A DNA stretch of 64,000 nt, taken from Thermosediminibacter oceani DSM 16646. Its GTDB lineage: Bacteria; Bacillota; Thermosediminibacteria; Thermosediminibacterales; Thermosediminibacteraceae. The notes beneath the pieces were generated by a model. It did not search any database. It saw only the letters and a list, made by a program, of their open reading frames with translations, and was not told the DNA's origin. A program made the position numbers and the translations under genes. The stretch spans positions 1,488,001 through 1,552,000 of the forward strand of contig NC_014377.1 in NCBI RefSeq assembly GCF_000144645.1. The letters run 5' to 3'. Of this stretch, positions 15,025 to 24,066 are shown piece after piece. How positions within the stretch are numbered: position 1 is the first letter of the stretch; every line of letters starts with the position of its first letter.

Positions 15025-15969
15025 TTAATTTAAAAGCATTCGATCATCCGGTTTCAGTAGGAAAATGGCGTATCTTATCAACACATAAAGGACCATTCCA
15101 ATTGCCCAAAGCTCTGCAAATTTGGTTAAATACATAAAAAGCGGAATTGTCTTTCCCGTTTTTGTTAAAAAAGCGTATGTGCCTTTCATTGCAACGGCGG
15201 TAATGACAAATGGAAATGTTAAGGCCGAATAGCTGGGATAGAATTTTAACTTCAGTATTTTAGGAATATACAGCATCACTGAAATATACATAACCAGCGA
15301 TAATATGCTTAAAAACGCGACCATAGCCATATTTTTTTGCTGGAAAGAATTCAAATAACCAGCCAGGCACAGACTCGCCGGGGCTGAAAAAATAGCAATG
15401 GTTGGCACAGCCGGTTCCGGTATTCCTTTTATTACTACAACCCTGTATATTATTAGCGGCAGTAAAATTAAATAAGATGTGAAGCCGAACCAGAATAGGA
15501 ATCGGCCAAAGTTTGTCATCCCAAATACCGGGGCAGTCACGCTGCCGCAGACGATACCTACGTAGACAATAAAGAAGCTTGGAAAAACTTTTTTAATATT
15601 AAAGTTGAAGATATATTTTTTAGTAAAATAAAGCATCAGTACGGCGTGTAAAGATAAGCCGAGAAGCCATAAGCAGTAAGCCGCCGTATAAAAATAGGGT
15701 TTCATATACGTGGATAAAATCATCAAACTCATGGAAAACGTGGGCATGACGCCGGCAACCACAGGATTTTCGAAGCCCTCTGCCAAGGATTTCGGCACGG
15801 TACACATTTTTACAACGAGCAAAAACATTATAACAGCAGACAAAACGCCAAAAATATTTCTATATACTTCTCCGTAGGACAAAACCAGGTTGCCCGCTGC
15901 TGCTAAAGCCAGCATCAACCCGGCTATCGGAATAGGTGCTTTGTTGATAATCATTTTCATATTTACCAC
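15025..15969 (-). CDS. TDT/SLAC1-family transporter (tellurite-resistance/dicarboxylate type)
   Basis: An integral membrane protein of about 310 residues with about ten helices. The start (PIPIAGLMLALAAAGNL) and the segment VFPSFFIVYVGIVCGSVTAP are typical of the TehA/Mae1/SLAC1 superfamily of anion and dicarboxylate transporters or channels. GTG at 15969 and ATG at 15960 are both possible; GGTGGT lies before the ATG. It starts 5 bases after the C_GCAxxG gene and so is translationally linked to it. The substrate cannot be predicted. Confidence 0.8.
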   Translation of the reverse strand: MVNMKMIINKAPIPIAGLMLALAAAGNLVLSYGEVYRNIFGVLSAVIMFLLVVKMCTVPKSLAEGFENPVVAGVMPTFSMSLMILSTYMKPYFYTAAYCLWLLGLSLHAVLMLYFTKKYIFNFNIKKVFPSFFIVYVGIVCGSVTAPVFGMTNFGRFLFWFGFTSYLILLPLIIYRVVVIKGIPEPAVPTIAIFSAPASLCLAGYLNSFQQKNMAMVAFLSILSLVMYISVMLYIPKILKLKFYPSYSALTFPFVITAVAMKGTYAFLTKTGKTIPLFMYLTKFAELWAIGMVLYVLIRYAIFLLKPDDRMLLN

Positions 15970-15974
15970 CGCGC

Positions 15975-16451
15975 TTATCCTATTCCTCCCATGTTAATTT
16001 TTTGTGCAATTTCCGGATCTTCCAGCAACTTTTCAGCAACCCATGCGGCGACTTCGCCTGTTATTTTAATACAGTGGGCTTTTCTTTCGGGACTGTTAAA
16101 ATCGTAATTTCTCACAAGGACGCGGCAGCATGTGCTTTTATACATACTTTTGATATGGTCGTGCAGCCCAGCGGACATTTGAAACATTTTTTCGTTCATG
16201 GGTTCACCGTGCTTCCTCCCGTAAGCCATGCCAAGGGCCATGGTGCCACCACTGACGGCTCCGCAGAGGCACCCCGACCTGCCAATGCCTATCGGAAAAC
16301 CGGATGCCATTTTTACAACTTCCTCAGGAAACGGCCAGCCGAGCAACTCATTGATGGTGTGTACCACGGCTTCCGAACAAAAAAATTCTCCGCGAGCAAA
16401 ATAACCCTCGGCCTTCTTGCGAATTGATTCAATTAATGCGCTTTTCTCCAC
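15975..16451 (-). CDS. C_GCAxxG_C_C family redox protein
   Basis: A soluble 158-residue protein with the cysteine signature of this family: EFFCSEAV, GRSGCLCGAVSGG, then STCCRVLVR and KAHCIKI. The cysteines are predicted to bind a metal or act in thiol redox chemistry; the exact function of the family is not established. It is the first gene of a two-gene operon with the TDT transporter. In the 157-base leader a perfect hairpin AGCTACC-ACCG-GGTAGCT lies at 16506-16523; I do not know whether it regulates. Confidence 0.85.
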   Translation of the reverse strand: MEKSALIESIRKKAEGYFARGEFFCSEAVVHTINELLGWPFPEEVVKMASGFPIGIGRSGCLCGAVSGGTMALGMAYGRKHGEPMNEKMFQMSAGLHDHIKSMYKSTCCRVLVRNYDFNSPERKAHCIKITGEVAAWVAEKLLEDPEIAQKINMGGIG

Positions 16452-16608: not shown

Positions 16609-16929
16609 TTATTGCAAATAAAAAAGTTCCGGGAAAATTTCCCGGAACATGAATTGGAATTTAATTGACTTTTTTTCAAAAGGATTGGGGCCTTTTTGTT
16701 TTACGGCGGCACAGCGACAATGAAGAGTGTGCCCGCAAGGCTTAGTTATTTCCCGATTGGCGGGATGTTTTCCTCCCGGTTTAACAAAAGAAAACAACGC
16801 TACCGAAGAAGCTCTCATCACTCCACCGCAGTGAACACATATCAGTTCCAATCCCTCTTTGTCTTTATAATCTATTATCACCGAACGCTTGGCATTACAA
16901 TCGCTGCAAACAAAGTCGTATAAAGGCAT
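16609..16929 (-). CDS. fmdB: FmdB-family zinc-ribbon protein, last gene of the cmu-like operon
   Basis: The start MPLYDFVCSDCN with C8-x2-C11 and C32-x2-C35 is the FmdB zinc ribbon, usually a small protein of unclear, perhaps regulatory, role. The reading frame starts 2 bases after the cmuA-like stop. As I recall, an fmdB gene follows cmuA in the chloromethane clusters of aerobic methylotrophs, which strengthens both calls. Oddity: the last 14 or so codons (FMFREIFPELFYLQ) are formed by a perfect terminator hairpin, and the stop codon lies beyond its T run. A frameshift may therefore hide the true stop upstream. Extra cysteines (PCGHTLHCRC) lie at about residues 64-73. Confidence 0.75.
   Translation of the reverse strand: MPLYDFVCSDCNAKRSVIIDYKDKEGLELICVHCGGVMRASSVALFSFVKPGGKHPANREITKPCGHTLHCRCAAVKQKGPNPFEKKSIKFQFMFREIFPELFYLQ
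16619..16648 (-). terminator. Terminator of the cmu-like operon, inside the fmdB reading frame
   Basis: GTTCCGGGAAA and TTTCCCGGAAC (16626-16648) form a near-loopless palindrome. On the minus strand T6 follows. It differs by one base from the hairpin duplicated around the second IS1182 copy (31377-31399). Confidence 0.8.
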
Positions 16930-16931
16930 AA

Positions 16932-18782
16932 TCAGTTGGCCCTTTCTCTTGCAGCAAGATACTCTTTCACTAAAGAAACAGCTGCGTTGGCATCCGAACC
17001 ATATTTGGCACCTATTCGCTCGGCAATCTCCTCATTCATCGCTGCTCCGCCGGTCATCACCAGATACTTGTCGGCTAGACCTTTCTCTTTAAGTAATTGG
17101 ACGGTTTTCTCTGCATAGGTAACCGAGGAGTTAGTCATAACAGATATACCAATGGCTACAGCATTATTGGCTTCTGCCGCTTCTATAAACTGCTCAGGTT
17201 TAACGTTCTTGCCGAGGTCTATAACATTATAGCCATTTGCCTTTAACATAAGAACCACGAGATTTTTGCCAATGTCTTGAGTGTTGCCGCGCACGAGCCC
17301 CATTACAACCGTTTCTTTCTTTCCGGATCCTATGCCTGAGGCTTCCATCAGCGGAGCAAGGATAGCTAATGCCTTTTCCATCGTCTTGGCAGATTTAATC
17401 ATATCGGTCACAAAACGTTCGTTGCGCTCATATAAATCGCCGACCATTTTCATTCCAACGGATAAACCGTTGAATATAATCTGTTGGGGGGTCAAACCGA
17501 GTTCCAAACCTTTTTTGGCCCACTCTACTGCTTTTTCATCATCATATTCCATAACCGCATCCGCCAGGTTGATGTAAACCTCTTCTTCAGGAGTTTTCTT
17601 TACCTCAAGGGTCTTCCGTATTCCCATTCTTACCATTTGATCGTCATCCGTTGAAATTTTGCGCATACCCGGGTGTTTGGGGTGTCCGGGCAAATAAACA
17701 TTACTCAGGTCACCAAGGGCCTCGATGTCTATCGGGTACTTGATTGACGCGCAGGTGTCAATCAACGCGCGTAAATTTTCTTCCGGAACAGTCCAGTCAA
17801 TATCACATCCGGGCATGCAGATAAATCCGCCGTTATACCCCACTTCAGCAACTAGTTTCTTTACTTCCTTGGCAACATCCTCGGGAGTGCCGTGGACTAA
17901 CGTTGAGTATGGGCTAACCGTACCCATTAGTGAAATTTTATCTCCTATAGTACGCTTAGCATGATCTGCTCCGGGGTACATATCACCGTTAAAGTTAACG
18001 GCGCCGGTTGTAACAATGTCGGGCCAAATGGGTTGGGTATAGGTGCATGTATGGAGGAGGCCTATACCGCCGATTTCCTTAATATAAGCGAATAACCTCT
18101 GCTGGTAAGGTAAGCCGAATTCTCTATACATTTCCGGCGGTAGAATATCACAGGAGCAGAATGGGTCAAGGATATTGACGACATCAACACCAGCTTCAAA
18201 CATCATCCGGCAGACATTTTTCACAACATCAAGAGATAGTTCTATAACCTCTTTAGCGAAATCCGGATCTTCAGCCAAATAGGTAAAAAAGTTGTCTGTT
18301 CCGGTAACCATCTGAGCGGTAGTAATCGGACCGCCGACGGGTGTAGCCAGTACATGTGTATCCTTCCAGCCTTCTTTTATAAAGGTTTTTATTTCTTGTT
18401 GAATTGCTCTCAAACGACCTTTATCCGGATTAAAACCATTCTTTAGGTAGTTATCTTTTAAGCGGTAAAAAGCTTCTTTTGTAGGCGCGGGATGTTCAAC
18501 TAATGAAGGTTGTGCATAGGGCAGGTATTCTAATACAGCGCCCAGGTTCTCTACCGGGGTAAACAAGTCGGTTCCGGCAAGCACCACGTCTCCACCGAAT
18601 TTTTGCAGTGCTTTGATTTTTGCTCTGGCCATAGCCTCGCCGTCGAACATAACCTCATCAATTCTAACTCCACCCTCGCGAATGCCCCGTGTCATTAACA
18701 AAGGGTTTACGGGGACCTGATCCGGCAGCTCTTTCATTGTAACTGCCGCAATAACTCTTTCCCGGCTGGTCATCTTTGCCAT
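16932..18782 (-). CDS. cmuA: CmuA-like methyltransferase/corrinoid-binding fusion protein
   Basis: A 616-residue fusion. Residues 1-370 are a UroD/MtaA-type methyltransferase with zinc ligands H244-T-C246 and C326 (MPGCDI). Residues about 400-480 are the helical cap and 490-612 the Rossmann part of a corrinoid-binding module. This order and length match CmuA (about 617 residues), which moves the methyl group of chloromethane to its own corrinoid. The usual DxHxxG-x41-SxL-x(26-28)-GG motif is present with exact spacing but altered residues: NTQDIG (500-505), 41 residues, SVM, 28 residues, GG (578-579). The cobalt-ligand His is thus Gln502. The start ATG has GAGGAGGG upstream. The methyl donor is not proven; other methyl compounds are possible. 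Confidence 0.85.
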   Translation of the reverse strand: MAKMTSRERVIAAVTMKELPDQVPVNPLLMTRGIREGGVRIDEVMFDGEAMARAKIKALQKFGGDVVLAGTDLFTPVENLGAVLEYLPYAQPSLVEHPAPTKEAFYRLKDNYLKNGFNPDKGRLRAIQQEIKTFIKEGWKDTHVLATPVGGPITTAQMVTGTDNFFTYLAEDPDFAKEVIELSLDVVKNVCRMMFEAGVDVVNILDPFCSCDILPPEMYREFGLPYQQRLFAYIKEIGGIGLLHTCTYTQPIWPDIVTTGAVNFNGDMYPGADHAKRTIGDKISLMGTVSPYSTLVHGTPEDVAKEVKKLVAEVGYNGGFICMPGCDIDWTVPEENLRALIDTCASIKYPIDIEALGDLSNVYLPGHPKHPGMRKISTDDDQMVRMGIRKTLEVKKTPEEEVYINLADAVMEYDDEKAVEWAKKGLELGLTPQQIIFNGLSVGMKMVGDLYERNERFVTDMIKSAKTMEKALAILAPLMEASGIGSGKKETVVMGLVRGNTQDIGKNLVVLMLKANGYNVIDLGKNVKPEQFIEAAEANNAVAIGISVMTNSSVTYAEKTVQLLKEKGLADKYLVMTGGAAMNEEIAERIGAKYGSDANAAVSLVKEYLAARERAN

Positions 18783-18882
18783 ACTTGTTCCCTCCTCAAA
18801 TTTTTCATTTGCAAATCTTTTGTATATTTTGGATTATCCGAAAATATCTCACCCCTTTTCCCATAATTTTGTGAACTTTATA

Positions 18883-20049
18883 TTAAAGGGCCGCAATTTC
18901 AGGAAATTCTGCTAATAATGTTTTCTCTATTGCCTCTTCAATGATGTTTCGAACCGGACCAATATTACGCAACTTTTCAAAATCATCGCTGGAGAAATTG
19001 CGGATAAACGCAGCCCCGCGGATAGCTGCAAGCACTTGTTCTGCCGAAGACATGTTGTCGAGGGGACCGGCAATGACCGGTGCACTCTGAGCCAACTCTG
19101 TAATTAATAAGGCGATTCTAGCTTTGTTTTTATTGGCCACGGCTTCGCCCAAAGCACACAGGTCGTTTGATCCGTGCAATATTATGGAAGCGGGCAGTTC
19201 CCGCCGCACTTCCAAAACATCCATCCCTTTAGCTTTGGTATCCAGGTTGATTAACTCGATACCCAATTCTGCTATTTCCTTCAGGATGGGGCGAATAGCT
19301 CCGCAACTGTGAAAACAAATCGCCGCCGGGGTTAACTGTCTAAGCCGGGTCAGCAACGAATGCATATAAGGACGGACTAGATTGCGGAAATCCGATGGAG
19401 AGAAAAACATCCCGTCTTGGTAGCCCAGATCATCGCTGTAAACGATAACATCCGGTTGCTCGGGAAGCGAACTCAACATGTAGTTATATGCCTCAATAAT
19501 AGTTTCCAATGACCAATCCAAGAGGGCTGCAGCCATCTTCCAGTTTTTTTCAGCAATGTCTTCCATAAACCGCCAGGGGTTGCGCAGCATAAAGCTCAGA
19601 TCTATTAGACCCGGGCAAGGAGCATCCGCGATTAAAATGCCTGCCTCTCTAAATTCCGGTTCAACAAGCTGTAATTGGTTCCGCCATTCGGGGTTAGGGT
19701 AATGTAAGATATCCTTGAGCTCTGCATTTTCCAAAGGATGGCTGATTGGTGACAATAAACCTTCGTCCCTTTGCCATTGAACACCGAAAGCGTCAGTAAA
19801 AGCTTCACCGGTTATCACCGGTGGGTCAAATAAAAGACCAGTACGGAGGAAATCAGACCCTAAACGGATACACTCCTTTGGAGCCAAAGGCAAAGTTTCA
19901 TAAATAGGATGTGCCACTGCACCGTCTTCTCGCAAATGCGGAAGGGCACCGGCCTGAATGCCGGTGAGGGATGTTGTTCCGATATCAATTAGCGGTGGAC
20001 CGTTCCACTTTCCGGAAAGCAATTCAGCTAATTTCATCCGGAGTGACAT
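18883..20049 (-). CDS. cmuC: CmuC-like methyltransferase (UroD family)
   Basis: A 388-residue UroD-fold protein. The HxC pair of the zinc site is visible in ICFHSCGAIRP and an acidic patch in YSDDLGYQDG. The partner cysteine seen in MtaA-type enzymes is not evident, so catalysis may differ. I start it at ATG 20049 (MSLRMKLAEL), with GGGAGATGGAG just upstream, rather than at 20085 inside the preceding gene. It lies 14 bases after the MtrH/CmuB-like gene and 100 bases before the cmuA-like gene. CmuC is known to be needed for chloromethane growth in methylotrophs, but its exact reaction is not settled. Confidence 0.8.
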   Translation of the reverse strand: MSLRMKLAELLSGKWNGPPLIDIGTTSLTGIQAGALPHLREDGAVAHPIYETLPLAPKECIRLGSDFLRTGLLFDPPVITGEAFTDAFGVQWQRDEGLLSPISHPLENAELKDILHYPNPEWRNQLQLVEPEFREAGILIADAPCPGLIDLSFMLRNPWRFMEDIAEKNWKMAAALLDWSLETIIEAYNYMLSSLPEQPDVIVYSDDLGYQDGMFFSPSDFRNLVRPYMHSLLTRLRQLTPAAICFHSCGAIRPILKEIAELGIELINLDTKAKGMDVLEVRRELPASIILHGSNDLCALGEAVANKNKARIALLITELAQSAPVIAGPLDNMSSAEQVLAAIRGAAFIRNFSSDDFEKLRNIGPVRNIIEEAIEKTLLAEFPEIAAL

Positions 20050-20063
20050 TACTCCATCTCCCT

Positions 20064-20960
20064 TTATAATTTGAACATATTCCATAAGGGATGATTCTCC
20101 GGTAGTTTTTGCCCGTCTAGTTCCTTAGCCGCAAATCCATAGAATACTTCTGCAGTCCCCGACACATAAACTGCTACTGCAGCCTTCTCAATGATACCGT
20201 AGTGTAAATAGTCTGCACCGGCGGCACGACAGACGGCAAGGGCTGTTGCCAAAGACAAATTTACCCATTCCCTGCCCAACTTTTTCACGCTGGTCCATTG
20301 TGGAAAACAGTTGGAAAAAGCACATCCTGCAGGATAACCGAAACGTTCCCGTACAGCCTGAATTTGCCGGATATTCAAGCCTATCGAAGGTGGGTCCATA
20401 GTGCCTACATCAACAATCGGAGCTTGTACACCAATCTCCTTTAACATAGGGTGATAATAGTTTTCAATCATTTCGCAGGTTCCTTCAGGGGTGGGATTGC
20501 TAACATCGCTAGCAAGAATCATGACAGCAGCGGGGCGGTGCCGGCCAAGTGCTTCCAATTCTTCATCTTCGGTATCCTCGTTGAGTGAAGCATAAATAGA
20601 ACGGTTCAGAATTCCAAGTTTAGCAGCCGCCTCAAGCCCGGCTATACGAGTTTCGGCCTCAGTAGCATTTATTAATAATGGGAGGTTTGTACGCGCACTT
20701 ACGAATTCCAAAAAACGTTCCATAGCCTCAGGTGAAGCTGCAATGATGTCAAAGGCCATTTGAACCCCATATCGCTTACTGAGTTGATTTACACGGTCAA
20801 CCAGTTCCGCCGCACGAGATTGATCAAACTCACCGGCGAAAGGATCAGAAACAATAGAGTGTTTGTCGTAAAAAATACTCCCCACCACTAAACCGGTAGT
20901 AGATCCGAACGGACCTCCTACCATTGCGTCACCAATCTTAATTACGTGACATTCTGCCAA
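20064..20960 (-). CDS. cmuB: MtrH/CmuB-like methylcorrinoid:tetrahydrofolate methyltransferase
   Basis: A TIM-barrel pterin methyltransferase of about 298 residues (MtrH family). Conserved-looking parts are GGPFGSTTGLVVGSIFYDKHSIV, NATEAETRIAGLE and PIVDVGTMDPPS. In chloromethane users CmuB takes the methyl group from CmuA to tetrahydrofolate; in methanogens MtrH uses methanopterin. TTG at 20960 is the best start (AGGAGG 8 bases upstream); TTG 20966 is only 2 bases from it. The ribosome site contains the stop codon of the HPP gene, so translation is coupled. Methyl-tetrahydrofolate would enter the acetyl-CoA or folate pathway, whose genes are not in this window. Confidence 0.85.
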   Translation of the reverse strand: MAECHVIKIGDAMVGGPFGSTTGLVVGSIFYDKHSIVSDPFAGEFDQSRAAELVDRVNQLSKRYGVQMAFDIIAASPEAMERFLEFVSARTNLPLLINATEAETRIAGLEAAAKLGILNRSIYASLNEDTEDEELEALGRHRPAAVMILASDVSNPTPEGTCEMIENYYHPMLKEIGVQAPIVDVGTMDPPSIGLNIRQIQAVRERFGYPAGCAFSNCFPQWTSVKKLGREWVNLSLATALAVCRAAGADYLHYGIIEKAAVAVYVSGTAEVFYGFAAKELDGQKLPENHPLWNMFKL

Positions 20961-20962
20961 CT

Positions 20963-21469
20963 TCAATTCCTCCTTATATTTATTAAAATTACATGAATCA
21001 CCAAAGCCACCAATATCAGGAGTCCCACTCCGAGTAATACCGGCATGATCACAAATCCATAAGAATGATTCGATAAAACAGCCACGAACGCCGTTGAGCC
21101 TCCAGGAGGATGCAATGTATCAGTGAGAATCATTAAATAAAATGCTAGAGTTACAGCAATAGCAATACTCCACCAGGTCACTCCCAAAAACCGGGAAACA
21201 GTTACCCCTACAATAGCAGATATTAATTGCCCTCCCACAACACATTTTACTTTTGACAAGGAAACCGGAGACTCAAATAATACTACTGTAGAACTAGCTA
21301 AAGGCGGAAAAATCAGGGCTGTTTCAAATCGAAATCCCAAATAAGTTATTAAACAAATACCGAGAAAACTTCCTGACATGGCAACTATTAAATAACCAGT
21401 TTTTTGTCCCGACAAATCATTAAATCTATTTTCTAATAGTTTGATTTTAGCAATGATTCGAGCTATCAA
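20963..21469 (-). CDS. HPP-family integral membrane protein, first gene of the cmu-like operon
   Basis: A 168-residue protein with four to five membrane helices and the family signature LHPPGGSTAF (about residues 115-124). HPP proteins are poorly characterised; plant and cyanobacterial members transport nitrite. The start is TTG 21469 with AAGGAG about 10 bases upstream. It is the promoter-proximal gene and its stop lies in the ribosome site of the CmuB-like gene. Co-expression suggests import of the methylated substrate or export of an anion such as chloride; this is only a suggestion from context. Confidence 0.8.
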   Translation of the reverse strand: MIARIIAKIKLLENRFNDLSGQKTGYLIVAMSGSFLGICLITYLGFRFETALIFPPLASSTVVLFESPVSLSKVKCVVGGQLISAIVGVTVSRFLGVTWWSIAIAVTLAFYLMILTDTLHPPGGSTAFVAVLSNHSYGFVIMPVLLGVGLLILVALVIHVILINIRRN

Positions 21470-21566
21470 AAAGAGACAGCTCCTTATGTAAATTTTTGCA
21501 AAAAAAAATGTTATAGAATTACTGAAAGTATAAAAATGTTTGAAAGCATATTATTAATCTAATTTT

Positions 21567-21595
21567 ATTTTAAATCTCATTATATTGTATGTCAA
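21567..21595 (-). promoter_or_regulatory. Promoter of the HPP-cmu-like operon
   Basis: Minus strand -35 TTGACA (21595-21590), 17-base spacer, -10 TAAAAT (21572-21567). The start site would be near 21560, giving a leader of about 90 bases. One TTGTAT element (21585-21590) touches the -35 box. Confidence 0.65.
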
Positions 21596-21689
21596 TATAT
21601 AATATAGTATATATTTTATTATCATTGTATAACTTTGTATAATTGATGAAACATATATTTTGCTTGATATTTTTAATACTTTGTTGTAT
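21585..21689. promoter_or_regulatory. Repeated TTGTAT elements in the divergent control region
   Basis: TTGTAT occurs at 21585-21590, 21625-21630, 21635-21640 and 21684-21689. The middle two are exactly 10 bases apart (one helical turn), and the outer two overlap the -35 of the operon promoter and the -10 of the regulator promoter. They are candidate binding sites of the HTH-MEDS regulator. The region is very A/T-rich, so chance is possible. Confidence 0.4.
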
Positions 21690-21692
21690 CAT
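21664..21692 (+). promoter_or_regulatory. Promoter of the HTH-MEDS regulator gene
   Basis: -35 TTGATA (21664-21669), 17-base spacer, -10 TATCAT (21687-21692), about 49 bases before the ATG. Confidence 0.6.
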
Positions 21693-21740
21693 CTTATTAC
21701 AAATAATTAATTATTACTAATAAGTGAAGCAGTGGTTAAT

Positions 21741-22493
21741 ATGAACGAAGAATTGCTAACTGTAGAAGAGGTATCAAAAATTCTTCGAACAACTCCCAAT
21801 ACAATTTATAGATGGCTAAGAGCCGGAAAGCTCCCCGGAGTCAAACTAGGCAAAGAGTGGCGCATAAGAAAAGAAATCCTTGCGTCAAAACTAAATGAAA
21901 CCAATACCACCAGTATCAGAGGGCAGCGTTTTTGGGATAAAATCGGCCCTCATCGCGGCCACGTTTTGGCGGTTACCCGCGACACAAACGATCTTTTTGA
22001 TCTTGAGGCAGAGTTTTTTAAAAAGGGATTATCCAGAGGATTTAGATTGTTTAAAGGGTGCTGGTGTCAAAAACCCGATGACGTCAGAAGGGAACTGTCT
22101 ATTAGAGGGCTACCTATTGAGGAGCTTGAAGCAAGAAATATCCTTACCATTATCGACCTGACTGATTATTATAATCGTTCAGGGAAAAATGGACCGGTTC
22201 AGATATGGTCGGAGGAGGCAAGAAAAACTTTAGAATTAGGATATAAGACTATGTGGGGTTCAGCTTCCCCTAACCCGCTGTCCTTCGGAGGACATTTTCA
22301 TAACCTTATTGAATTTGAAAGTTCGCTGGATAATGCCCTTAGAAAGCTGCCGGTTGTTGGAATCTGTACCTACTTTTTTGATGATTTTACCGGCGACAAT
22401 TTTATGCGGTTGATTGATTTGATGAACGTTCATTTAAGCGTTATTTTTTACAATAACGGATCGGTGATTTATTTAAAAAATGAACCGGCTTAA
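21741..22493 (+). CDS. HTH-MEDS (DcmR-type) transcriptional regulator
   Basis: A 250-residue protein. Residues about 5-55 are an excisionase/MerR-like helix-turn-helix (LTVEEVSKILRTTPNTIYRW and LPGVKLGKEWRI). The rest resembles the MEDS domain (methanogen/methylotroph DcmR sensory domain): HRGHVLAVTRDTNDLFDLEA, FFKKGLSRGFRLFKG and LPVVGICTYFFDDFTGDNF. DcmR controls dichloromethane dehalogenase in Methylobacterium. ATG 21741 is preferred to GTG 21732; neither has a strong ribosome site. It is divergent from the cmu-like operon, so it probably senses the C1 substrate and controls that operon. Domain assignment is from memory of the family, not from a search. Confidence 0.75.
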   Translation: MNEELLTVEEVSKILRTTPNTIYRWLRAGKLPGVKLGKEWRIRKEILASKLNETNTTSIRGQRFWDKIGPHRGHVLAVTRDTNDLFDLEAEFFKKGLSRGFRLFKGCWCQKPDDVRRELSIRGLPIEELEARNILTIIDLTDYYNRSGKNGPVQIWSEEARKTLELGYKTMWGSASPNPLSFGGHFHNLIEFESSLDNALRKLPVVGICTYFFDDFTGDNFMRLIDLMNVHLSVIFYNNGSVIYLKNEPA

Positions 22494-22581: not shown

Positions 22582-22620
22582 AAGCCGCTTTTAGGATGCA
22601 TAACCTAAAAGCGGCTTTTT
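22582..22620 (+). terminator. Inward-facing terminator at the left end of IS copy 1
   Basis: AAGCCGCTTTTAGG (22582-22595) and CCTAAAAGCGGCTT (22604-22617) form a perfect 14-base stem followed by T5. It faces into the element, against the transposase, and includes the transposase stop codon. The same structure is at 31416-31454 in copy 2. Confidence 0.8.
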
Positions 22621-24066
22621 GTTGAAGGCGAAGAAAATTTTTAAGAAAAACGAATGTAAAGCGGGGACTGTTGGCGGAAACGTTCCCCGTCTTTTCTTCC
22701 ATAAAGCCAGCTTTTTTAAATTCATGCATGCGAAAAGAAGCGTGAGGTAATGTCCAACTTTCCTCAAGCCTCGTAGATTTGTATAGCGCATGCCATGCTT
22801 TTCCTTCGCATCGGCAAATACCCGCTCGATGGTCTGGCCGCGCATTTTGTATAGTTCTTTACCCCATTGGGTGTGTCTTATATCTTCCGCTATTTCTATG
22901 TAATGCTCCCATATATGCCGAGTTATGATTTTTGTGTAATTTTTACTTTTGGTGCACTGTAGGCGCATGGGACATTTACAGCATATTTGGGGGTTGCTCC
23001 TATATTCCCGGTATCCCGCCCGGTTGGTGGTGCTGTATTCTAATATTTGGTTGTTGGGGCATATGTAACAATCATAATATTCGTCATAGACGTATTCGCG
23101 TTTTTTAAAGTAACCATCTTTGGTCATCGGCCTCTTGTAGGGCATAACGGGAAGCGCTCCTGCCTCAATGATTTCTCTGCATATCCCGGGGGTTTTGTAG
23201 CCTGCATCAACCACTACCGCCTCTATTTTAGAAAATTTATCGTTTACTTCTTGAAATAAATCGGAGAATACCTGGCTGTCATGAACATTTCCAGGTGCTA
23301 TTTTGACACCAAGGACAAAGTTGTTCCGGTCACAGGCTACAGAAGCTGTGTAGGCAAAGCAGCGCTCTTTTTCCCCTTTTTGAAACATCCCACTTTCAGG
23401 ATCTGTGGTGCTTACCCTGACTTTTTTAGAGCTATTTTCTCCTTTGTTGTTATCGTCATCATCATCTTCTTCTTCAAAGGGCTTTTTACCGTTTGCTTCC
23501 CGTTCGGCGTTGATTTCTTTTAAAAGTTCTTCCTTATATTTTTGAGTCCGTTGCTTAGCGACTTTCTCGATATATTTATTCTTATTGGCACTGGCTTTTA
23601 TGTGAGTAGCATCGATAAATACTGCATCTGTTTTAACAAACCCGCATTCTATTGCTTCCATCAACACCCGCTCGAATATCTTTTCAAATAGATCACTTTC
23701 CTTAAACCGCCGTTCATAGTTTTTTCCAAAAGTTGAAAAGTGAGGTATTTTTTCTTGTAATCCATAGCCTAAAAACCAACGGTAAGCTACATTGACTTCT
23801 ACTTCTCTGATGGTTTGGCGCATGGAGCGGATTCCATACAATGCTTGGAGCATGAGTAGCTTAATTAACACTACCGGGTCAATACTAGGTCTTCCTGTAT
23901 TTTCGCTATATAGGTCTTTTACTTCATCATAAATGAAATTAAAGTCGATGCTTTCTTCTACTGCCCTAAGGAGATGGTCTTGAGGTACTAAGCTATCGAT
24001 GCTTACTAATTCTACCTGCTCTATTATTTCTCGATTTTTCTTCGTTAACATTTCATCGCCCCACAA
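22591..24066 (-). CDS. IS1182-family transposase (copy 1)
   Basis: A DDE transposase of 491 residues, full length for the family. The N-terminal part (SIDSLVPQDHLLRAVEESID, SENTGRPSIDPVVLIKLL) and GIRSMRQTIREVEVNVAYRWFLG are typical. Catalytic candidates are FIDATHIKA, VVDAGYKTPGICREI and the YREYRSNPQICCKC zinc-like region, then the glutamate segment QTIERVFADAKEKHGMRY. An acidic linker (EEEDDDDDNN) lies in the middle. The frame is intact, so the copy may be active. The ATG at 24066 lacks a strong ribosome site. Confidence 0.95.
   Translation of the reverse strand: MWGDEMLTKKNREIIEQVELVSIDSLVPQDHLLRAVEESIDFNFIYDEVKDLYSENTGRPSIDPVVLIKLLMLQALYGIRSMRQTIREVEVNVAYRWFLGYGLQEKIPHFSTFGKNYERRFKESDLFEKIFERVLMEAIECGFVKTDAVFIDATHIKASANKNKYIEKVAKQRTQKYKEELLKEINAEREANGKKPFEEEDDDDDNNKGENSSKKVRVSTTDPESGMFQKGEKERCFAYTASVACDRNNFVLGVKIAPGNVHDSQVFSDLFQEVNDKFSKIEAVVVDAGYKTPGICREIIEAGALPVMPYKRPMTKDGYFKKREYVYDEYYDCYICPNNQILEYSTTNRAGYREYRSNPQICCKCPMRLQCTKSKNYTKIITRHIWEHYIEIAEDIRHTQWGKELYKMRGQTIERVFADAKEKHGMRYTNLRGLRKVGHYLTLLFACMNLKKLALWKKRRGTFPPTVPALHSFFLKIFFAFNKKPLLGYAS

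Follow-up and report, generated by a model that had tools for sequence, protein, structure and literature searches.

A chloromethane-type gene cluster, its MEDS regulator and a linked HPP membrane protein in Thermosediminibacter oceani and other anaerobic Bacillota

Within a 64,000-nucleotide stretch of the Thermosediminibacter oceani DSM 16646 chromosome (NC_014377.1, positions 1,488,001 to 1,552,000; hereafter the window, in whose coordinates features are given), a regulator gene stands divergent from an operon of chloromethane-utilisation (cmu) genes. Judged by its sequence, this cluster is probably the version of the chloromethane-utilisation system that belongs to anaerobic Bacillota, carrying out methyl transfer from methyl halides to tetrahydrofolate (THF) under a MEDS-domain regulator. 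The host, whose genome is one contig of 2,280,035 bp, is a thermophile from sediment of the Peru margin that lives anaerobically, fermenting sugars chiefly to acetate (PMC3035372); the initial annotation, made from the sequence alone, was right to take it for a strict anaerobe.

That an anaerobe carries a cmu cluster is correct, and already published. Toce_1532 to Toce_1535 were listed in 2014 as the cmuBCA cluster of an obligate anaerobe, one of five anaerobic cases together with Thermincola potens, Desulfotomaculum alcoholivorax, Desulfurispora thermophila and Desulfomonile tiedjei (Nadalig et al. 2014, PMC4197683). Identities to the M. extorquens CM4 proteins were given there as 68% for CmuA (Toce_1533), 62% for CmuB (Toce_1535), 35% for CmuC (Toce_1534) and 37% for FmdB (Toce_1532), and the authors stressed the surprise of meeting cmu genes in an anaerobe, leaving function for future testing (PMC4197683). 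A 2026 study still assigns Cmu to aerobic methylotrophs (PMC13222342). The regulator, the operator, the recruitment of an HPP membrane protein and the link to the Wood-Ljungdahl pathway appear to be additions to the published account; HPP and the operator go unmentioned in the 2014 text. Two points of that account, an "excisionase" and an absent MetF, are corrected below.

Gene order and identity of the cmu operon

The operon lies on the minus strand and begins with an HPP-family membrane protein gene (20963..21469; TM_HPP E=4.6e-38). This is followed by cmuB (Toce_1535, 20064..20966), encoding an MtrH-family methylcorrinoid:tetrahydrofolate methyltransferase (E=1.8e-47), cmuC (Toce_1534, 18883..20085), encoding a UroD-fold protein (URO-D E=3.8e-11), cmuA (Toce_1533, 16932..18782), whose predicted product is a methyl halide:corrinoid methyltransferase with a fused corrinoid domain, and a gene for an FmdB-like zinc-ribbon protein (Toce_1532, 16609..16929). 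Pfam and NCBIfam profile searches back these identities and bear out the gene order and coordinates of the initial annotation, which had also correctly given cmuB-cmuC-cmuA-fmdB as the order of the reference aerobic operon. The FmdB-like protein scores under the Pfam and NCBIfam cut-offs, yet is homologous to the FmdB of other cmu loci. HPP and cmuB overlap by 4 bp and cmuB and cmuC by 22 bp, while gaps of 100 bp and 2 bp separate cmuC from cmuA and cmuA from fmdB; these overlaps and short gaps indicate that the five genes form a single transcription unit. Because the identical order recurs at other Bacillota loci, it is not a product of chance.

By identity, domain order, motifs and tree position, the T. 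oceani protein is a true CmuA. Its 616 residues comprise URO-D (6-345), B12-binding_2 (406-475) and B12-binding (491-601) domains, and it scores 413.5 bits against TIGR01463 (mtaA_cmuA; cut-off 235.4). The reference clusters were those of pJM105, whose cmu genes we took to be those of Hyphomicrobium sp. MC1, and of pCMU01 from M. extorquens CM4; full-length CmuA identity is 69% to the former and 67% to the latter. All 25 CmuA proteins compared share the zinc motif HxC...MPGC, and in all 25 GNTQDIGK replaces the DxHxxG corrin motif, unlike other corrinoid proteins, in which the cobalt-binding histidine motif reads GDLHDIG. Across the same set, 171 of 350 N-terminal positions are invariant. In an IQ-TREE phylogeny, the 12 Bacillota sequences make up a single clade (100/100) next to the 13 from aerobic Pseudomonadota and Actinomycetota, and the T. 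oceani protein is far from its host's two MtaA-like paralogs. Branching of the fusion protein with non-halide methyltransferases was looked for and did not occur; the initial description of it as CmuA-like holds, since it groups with aerobic CmuA and is 67-69% identical to the functionally proven CM4 and MC1 enzymes. The MtaA-like proteins of T. oceani could not serve to root the tree, because their branches are saturated (length 10). The tree is consequently unrooted within CmuA, and we claim no direction of transfer between anaerobes and aerobes.

CmuB, of MtrH type and encoded in the same cluster, is 62-71% identical to aerobic CmuB. Chloromethane:THF methyl transfer by the CM4 CmuA/CmuB pair is established (cited in PMC4197683). 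By analogy, the T. oceani CmuA would take the methyl group from CH3Cl, CH3Br or CH3I, load it onto the Co(I) corrinoid held in its C-terminal domain and set halide free, and CmuB would pass the methyl from the corrinoid to THF. The predicted model of CmuC (pLDDT 89) has a UroD/MtaA fold, with a best Z of 24.3 to UroD and 23.7 to the M. mazei methyltransferase 4ay8; the protein retains HSC (HxC) and lacks the third zinc cysteine. Eleven of the 12 Bacillota loci carry cmuC. The exception, L013 (HGW-Firmicutes-14), also lacks HPP and retains MEDS, cmuB, cmuA and fmdB. A second Desulfomonile cmu cluster is likewise devoid of cmuC (PMC4197683), and together these two loci suggest that CmuC can be dispensable.

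The methyl donor might have changed in the anaerobic clade. About 25 positions are fixed differently between Bacillota and aerobic CmuA, some of them in the N-terminal domain, and the Bacillota branch measures 0.35 changes per site; by sequence, therefore, a shift in preference is possible, for instance towards methanethiol, dimethyl sulfide, methanol or a methoxylated compound. Acetobacterium dehalogenans, moreover, handles chloromethane by the unrelated Cdm (PMC13222342), which likewise works anaerobically, moving the methyl group of chloromethane by way of a corrinoid into an acetogenic route. Cdm consists of three separate proteins (CdmB/C/A), whereas CmuA is a fusion, and within the UroD superfamily CdmB is placed close to O-demethylases and away from CmuA (PMC13222342). 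Such a substrate switch nevertheless seems improbable, given the high CmuA identity that includes the zinc and NTQDIG motifs, a MEDS sensor of the DcmR type, the recruitment of HPP, which fits an ionic by-product, and the other UroD/corrinoid methyltransferase clusters that T. oceani holds, probably for other donors.

A scan of genome contigs returned at least 18 cmu loci; as it used two peptide patterns blind to more divergent copies, this count is a lower bound, and Desulfomonile tiedjei, reported to carry two clusters, was not among the returns. In an even draw of Bacillota genomes, CmuA (E<=1e-100) occurs in eight of 398, and the five sampled genomes that belong to other genera of the T. 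oceani family lack it. Among the Actinomycetota, L015, L017, L072 and L073 (Pseudonocardia endophytica, Actinomycetospora) hold CmuA (70%) and CmuC, with a 63% CmuB in the same genome; their cmuB is not immediately next to cmuA. An IS1182-family transposase gene (22591..24066, minus strand) flanks the T. oceani cluster outside the system, and another from this family lies near a second methyltransferase cluster (L035, 1766-3109). The patchy distribution and the adjacent IS1182 element would suit horizontal transfer. The same element, together with a remnant HPP gene in T. litoriperuensis, might even mark the cluster as a decaying, functionless acquisition. This is very improbable: the T. oceani open frames are all intact, operator and promoter are retained, and the cmu enzymes are 89-96% identical between the two Thermosediminibacter species.

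The MEDS regulator and its predicted operator

The plus-strand gene at 21732..22493, divergent from the operon, encodes an HTH_17+MEDS transcription regulator of DcmR type (MEDS E=9.5e-23), confirming the DcmR-like protein proposed in the initial annotation. In the 2014 account, the cluster-adjacent gene was called an "excisionase" and read as a sign of mobility (PMC4197683); here it is a MEDS regulator. A MEDS gene adjoins the cluster at all 12 Bacillota cmu loci, and it is the sole full-length MEDS gene in each of the 12 host genomes; the two other matches across all 12 are one short fragment and one sub-threshold hit. A search for DcmR relatives on plasmids gave only HTH-level or 23% matches.

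The T. oceani intergenic region contains the predicted operator ATACARTGTTATACAAT, two heptamers at 10-bp spacing, placed on the minus strand at 21624..21640 (ATACAAAGTTATACAAT, heptamer form ATACAAN); it is the only site in the genome with no more than one mismatch. A predicted sigma-70 promoter of the operon, TTGACA-N17-TAAAAT, lies at 21567..21595 on the same strand, with its -35 element starting 45 bp past the operator start. At least one site matching at 14 or more of 17 positions is present in 12/12 anaerobic loci and, at the 14/17 level, in 0/15 aerobic cmu sequences; conservation among the closest relatives is partly common descent, and the argument rests on the divergent Desulfosporosinus, Desulfotruncus and Thermosediminibacter loci. 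Wherever a TTGAC follows, the operator starts 15, 25, 35 or 45 bp ahead of it, and at the main cmu promoter, which is of consensus type, this distance is 25 or 45 bp in 11 of 12 loci. The remaining locus, L045, has three operator sites in 10-bp register and no clear TTGACA. Dinucleotide shuffles of the cmu promoter regions equalled the observed operator score in 0-9 of 200 trials.

A 10-bp register puts the sites on the same helical face, an arrangement that resembles regulators binding direct repeats cooperatively. From the exclusive co-occurrence of gene and site, we infer that the MEDS protein binds the predicted operator. It would sense the small halogenated substrate and control the operon through this helically phased ATACAAT array before a strong sigma-70 promoter. 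Since that promoter comes close to consensus, control by a repression that the substrate lifts seems more likely than control by activation. The dcmR-dcmA pair of Methylorubrum extorquens DM4 offers a parallel, in that a MEDS-sensor regulator is divergent from a dehalogenase gene with a TTGACA promoter. However, the DM4 dcmA enzyme is of glutathione S-transferase type, unlike the corrinoid CmuA system, and the DM4 promoter motif GATC(C/G)ATAGCCT is not present in the T. oceani intergenic region.

Repeated recruitment of an HPP membrane protein

The first gene of the T. oceani operon encodes a protein with a TM_HPP domain (PF04982) and the HPP motif TDTLHPPGG. An HPP gene stands beside nine of the 12 Bacillota cmu loci in three arrangements: at the head of the operon (the window, L010, L046, L047 and L048), after fmdB (L011 and L012), or on the far side of the MEDS gene and divergent from it (L014 and L024). 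In L014 and L024 an operator/TTGAC pair faces HPP itself, and L046 has one operator each for HPP and cmuB. HPP genes occur in 59 of the 398 evenly drawn Bacillota genomes; in the eight cmu hosts of that sample, five of about nine are cmu-linked (binomial p ~3e-9).

The HPPs linked to cmu belong to three distinct lineages with good support. Approximately unbiased (AU) tests rejected a single clade of all nine (p=0.015), as well as one clade of the Thermosediminibacter and Desulfosporosinus types (p=0.004), but not one of the Thermosediminibacter and Desulfotruncus types (p=0.43). On these rejections, the sequences place the recruitment of HPP into cmu clusters at two occasions or more.

Dehalogenation of chloromethane frees halide inside the cell, so halide export is the simplest need, and in CM4 chloromethane strongly induces clcA2, an H+/Cl- antiporter gene carried on a plasmid (PMC5585157). 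HPP may perhaps export cytoplasmic halide, taking the role that ClcA-type antiporters have in aerobes, although we put this at somewhat under an even chance. A slightly lower probability goes to a non-exporting HPP that imports or senses something else, such as a nitrite-like anion, takes up substrate, or serves as a membrane partner of CmuABC. The known activity of the family, which includes a nitrite (anion) transporter, is nitrite transport (PMC4137279), residue-level evidence for halide is absent from HPP, and some cmu loci do without the gene. Even so, it has been recruited repeatedly from unrelated lineages and in two loci has an operator to itself, which links it to the pathway. Nor is an importer required, since methyl halides pass freely through membranes. 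A role for HPP beyond nitrite transport is suggested.

Several features count against HPP as a working halide exporter of the system. It is missing from L013 and L045, and in T. litoriperuensis (L009, 7630-7790) it is internally deleted, keeping residues 1-17 and 136-168 and losing 18-135, with promoter and cmuB intact; HPP would therefore be useful, not indispensable. Its structural model is poor (pLDDT 67), and Foldseek gave it no match below E=2.5 and none to a solved fold.

Downstream of the operon in both Thermosediminibacter species, at 15025-16451 on the minus strand in the window, are genes for a SLAC1/TehA-family anion channel (15025..15969) and a C_GCAxxG_C_C redox protein (15975..16451). 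Their membership is doubtful, and both were rejected as parts of the system, being confined to T. oceani and T. litoriperuensis; the channel could be another halide route.

Methyl-THF outlets and comparison with aerobic systems

The Wood-Ljungdahl gene set of T. oceani is near-complete. One cluster (G000:796000-815500) holds fhs, fchA, folD, metV (DUF5981), metF, acsD, acsC, acsE, acsB and acsV, and a CooS-type CO dehydrogenase is encoded at about 793 kb. Methyl-THF accordingly has an acetogenic outlet, as the initial annotation had anticipated in pointing to an acetogenic or folate route; the genes it proposed seeking for that route and for corrinoid reactivation are present as metF, the acs cluster and four genes for reductive activases (RACo). 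That the 2014 study listed no MetF (PMC4197683) comes from its requirement of 30% identity to the CM4 protein. Methyl-THF would take one of two paths: oxidation by way of MetVF/FolD/FchA/Fhs, or condensation with CO, by AcsE/CD/B, to give acetyl-CoA.

Two further loci in the genome may concern other methyl donors. At L035 (G000:699000-713000), two complete genes for MtaA-like UroD proteins accompany a shorter UroD-like gene and one for a RACo-type activase; cysK and cystathionine gamma-lyase genes come next, and the locus may serve a methylthiol route. L036 (G000:779000-795500), near CooS, has two corrinoid proteins, a UroD protein, an MFS transporter, a GntR regulator, a pterin-binding methyltransferase and RACo genes, and is probably another methyl-donor system.

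Compared with Hyphomicrobium sp. MC1 and CM4 pCMU01, the Bacillota form has a common gene order, CmuA architecture and motifs, at the CmuA and CmuB identities given above. The neighbourhoods differ. The aerobic loci carry paaE, hutI, metF2, purU and folD, none of which is present in any of the 12 anaerobic loci; conversely, the aerobic loci examined have no MEDS, HPP or ATACAAT operator. No RACo gene was found within the cluster at any locus, the four of T. oceani lying elsewhere in its genome, and antisense open frames were the only further conserved neighbours across the 12 loci.

Of the eight cmuA hosts in the even draw, seven have acetyl-CoA synthase (ACS), compared with 105 of the 390 remaining genomes (Fisher p 7e-4, in a test that ignores shared ancestry, which tempers its support), and so do three of four further named hosts. 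Two of the 12 anaerobic hosts (G276 and L011) have no ACS, a point against a general acetogenic outlet; methylenetetrahydrofolate reductase (PF02219) is encoded in 10 of the 12, including both of these. It also weighs against the main reading that T. oceani requires yeast extract and does not grow on H2/CO2 (PMC3035372), and that our literature search found no report of methyl-halide growth or enzyme activity for T. oceani or any other cmu-bearing anaerobe. The same chemistry could serve purely to detoxify or scavenge trace methyl halide, a reading that differs in purpose only and that we consider a serious contender at roughly one chance in three. Besides the lack of autotrophic growth, it draws on the patchy spread of the cluster and on its want of dedicated MetF, FolD and PurU genes, unlike aerobes; the enrichment of the acetyl-CoA pathway among cmuA hosts and the methyl-THF outlet in the genome argue the other way.

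We speculate, with limited confidence, that anaerobic Bacillota hold a distinct, self-regulated methyl-halide module, in which a MEDS protein acting on a phased ATACAAT array would govern CmuABC, methyl groups would pass from CmuABC into the Wood-Ljungdahl pathway, and HPP, recruited convergently, would be a new type of halide exporter. The sensor, the defined operator and the linked transporter provide three concrete handles on cmu function in anaerobes. A large share of the natural halogen that depletes ozone in the stratosphere arrives as methyl halides, whose sinks in anaerobic settings are little known. If the proposed function is true, subsurface thermophiles would represent an unrecognised anaerobic sink for methyl halides.

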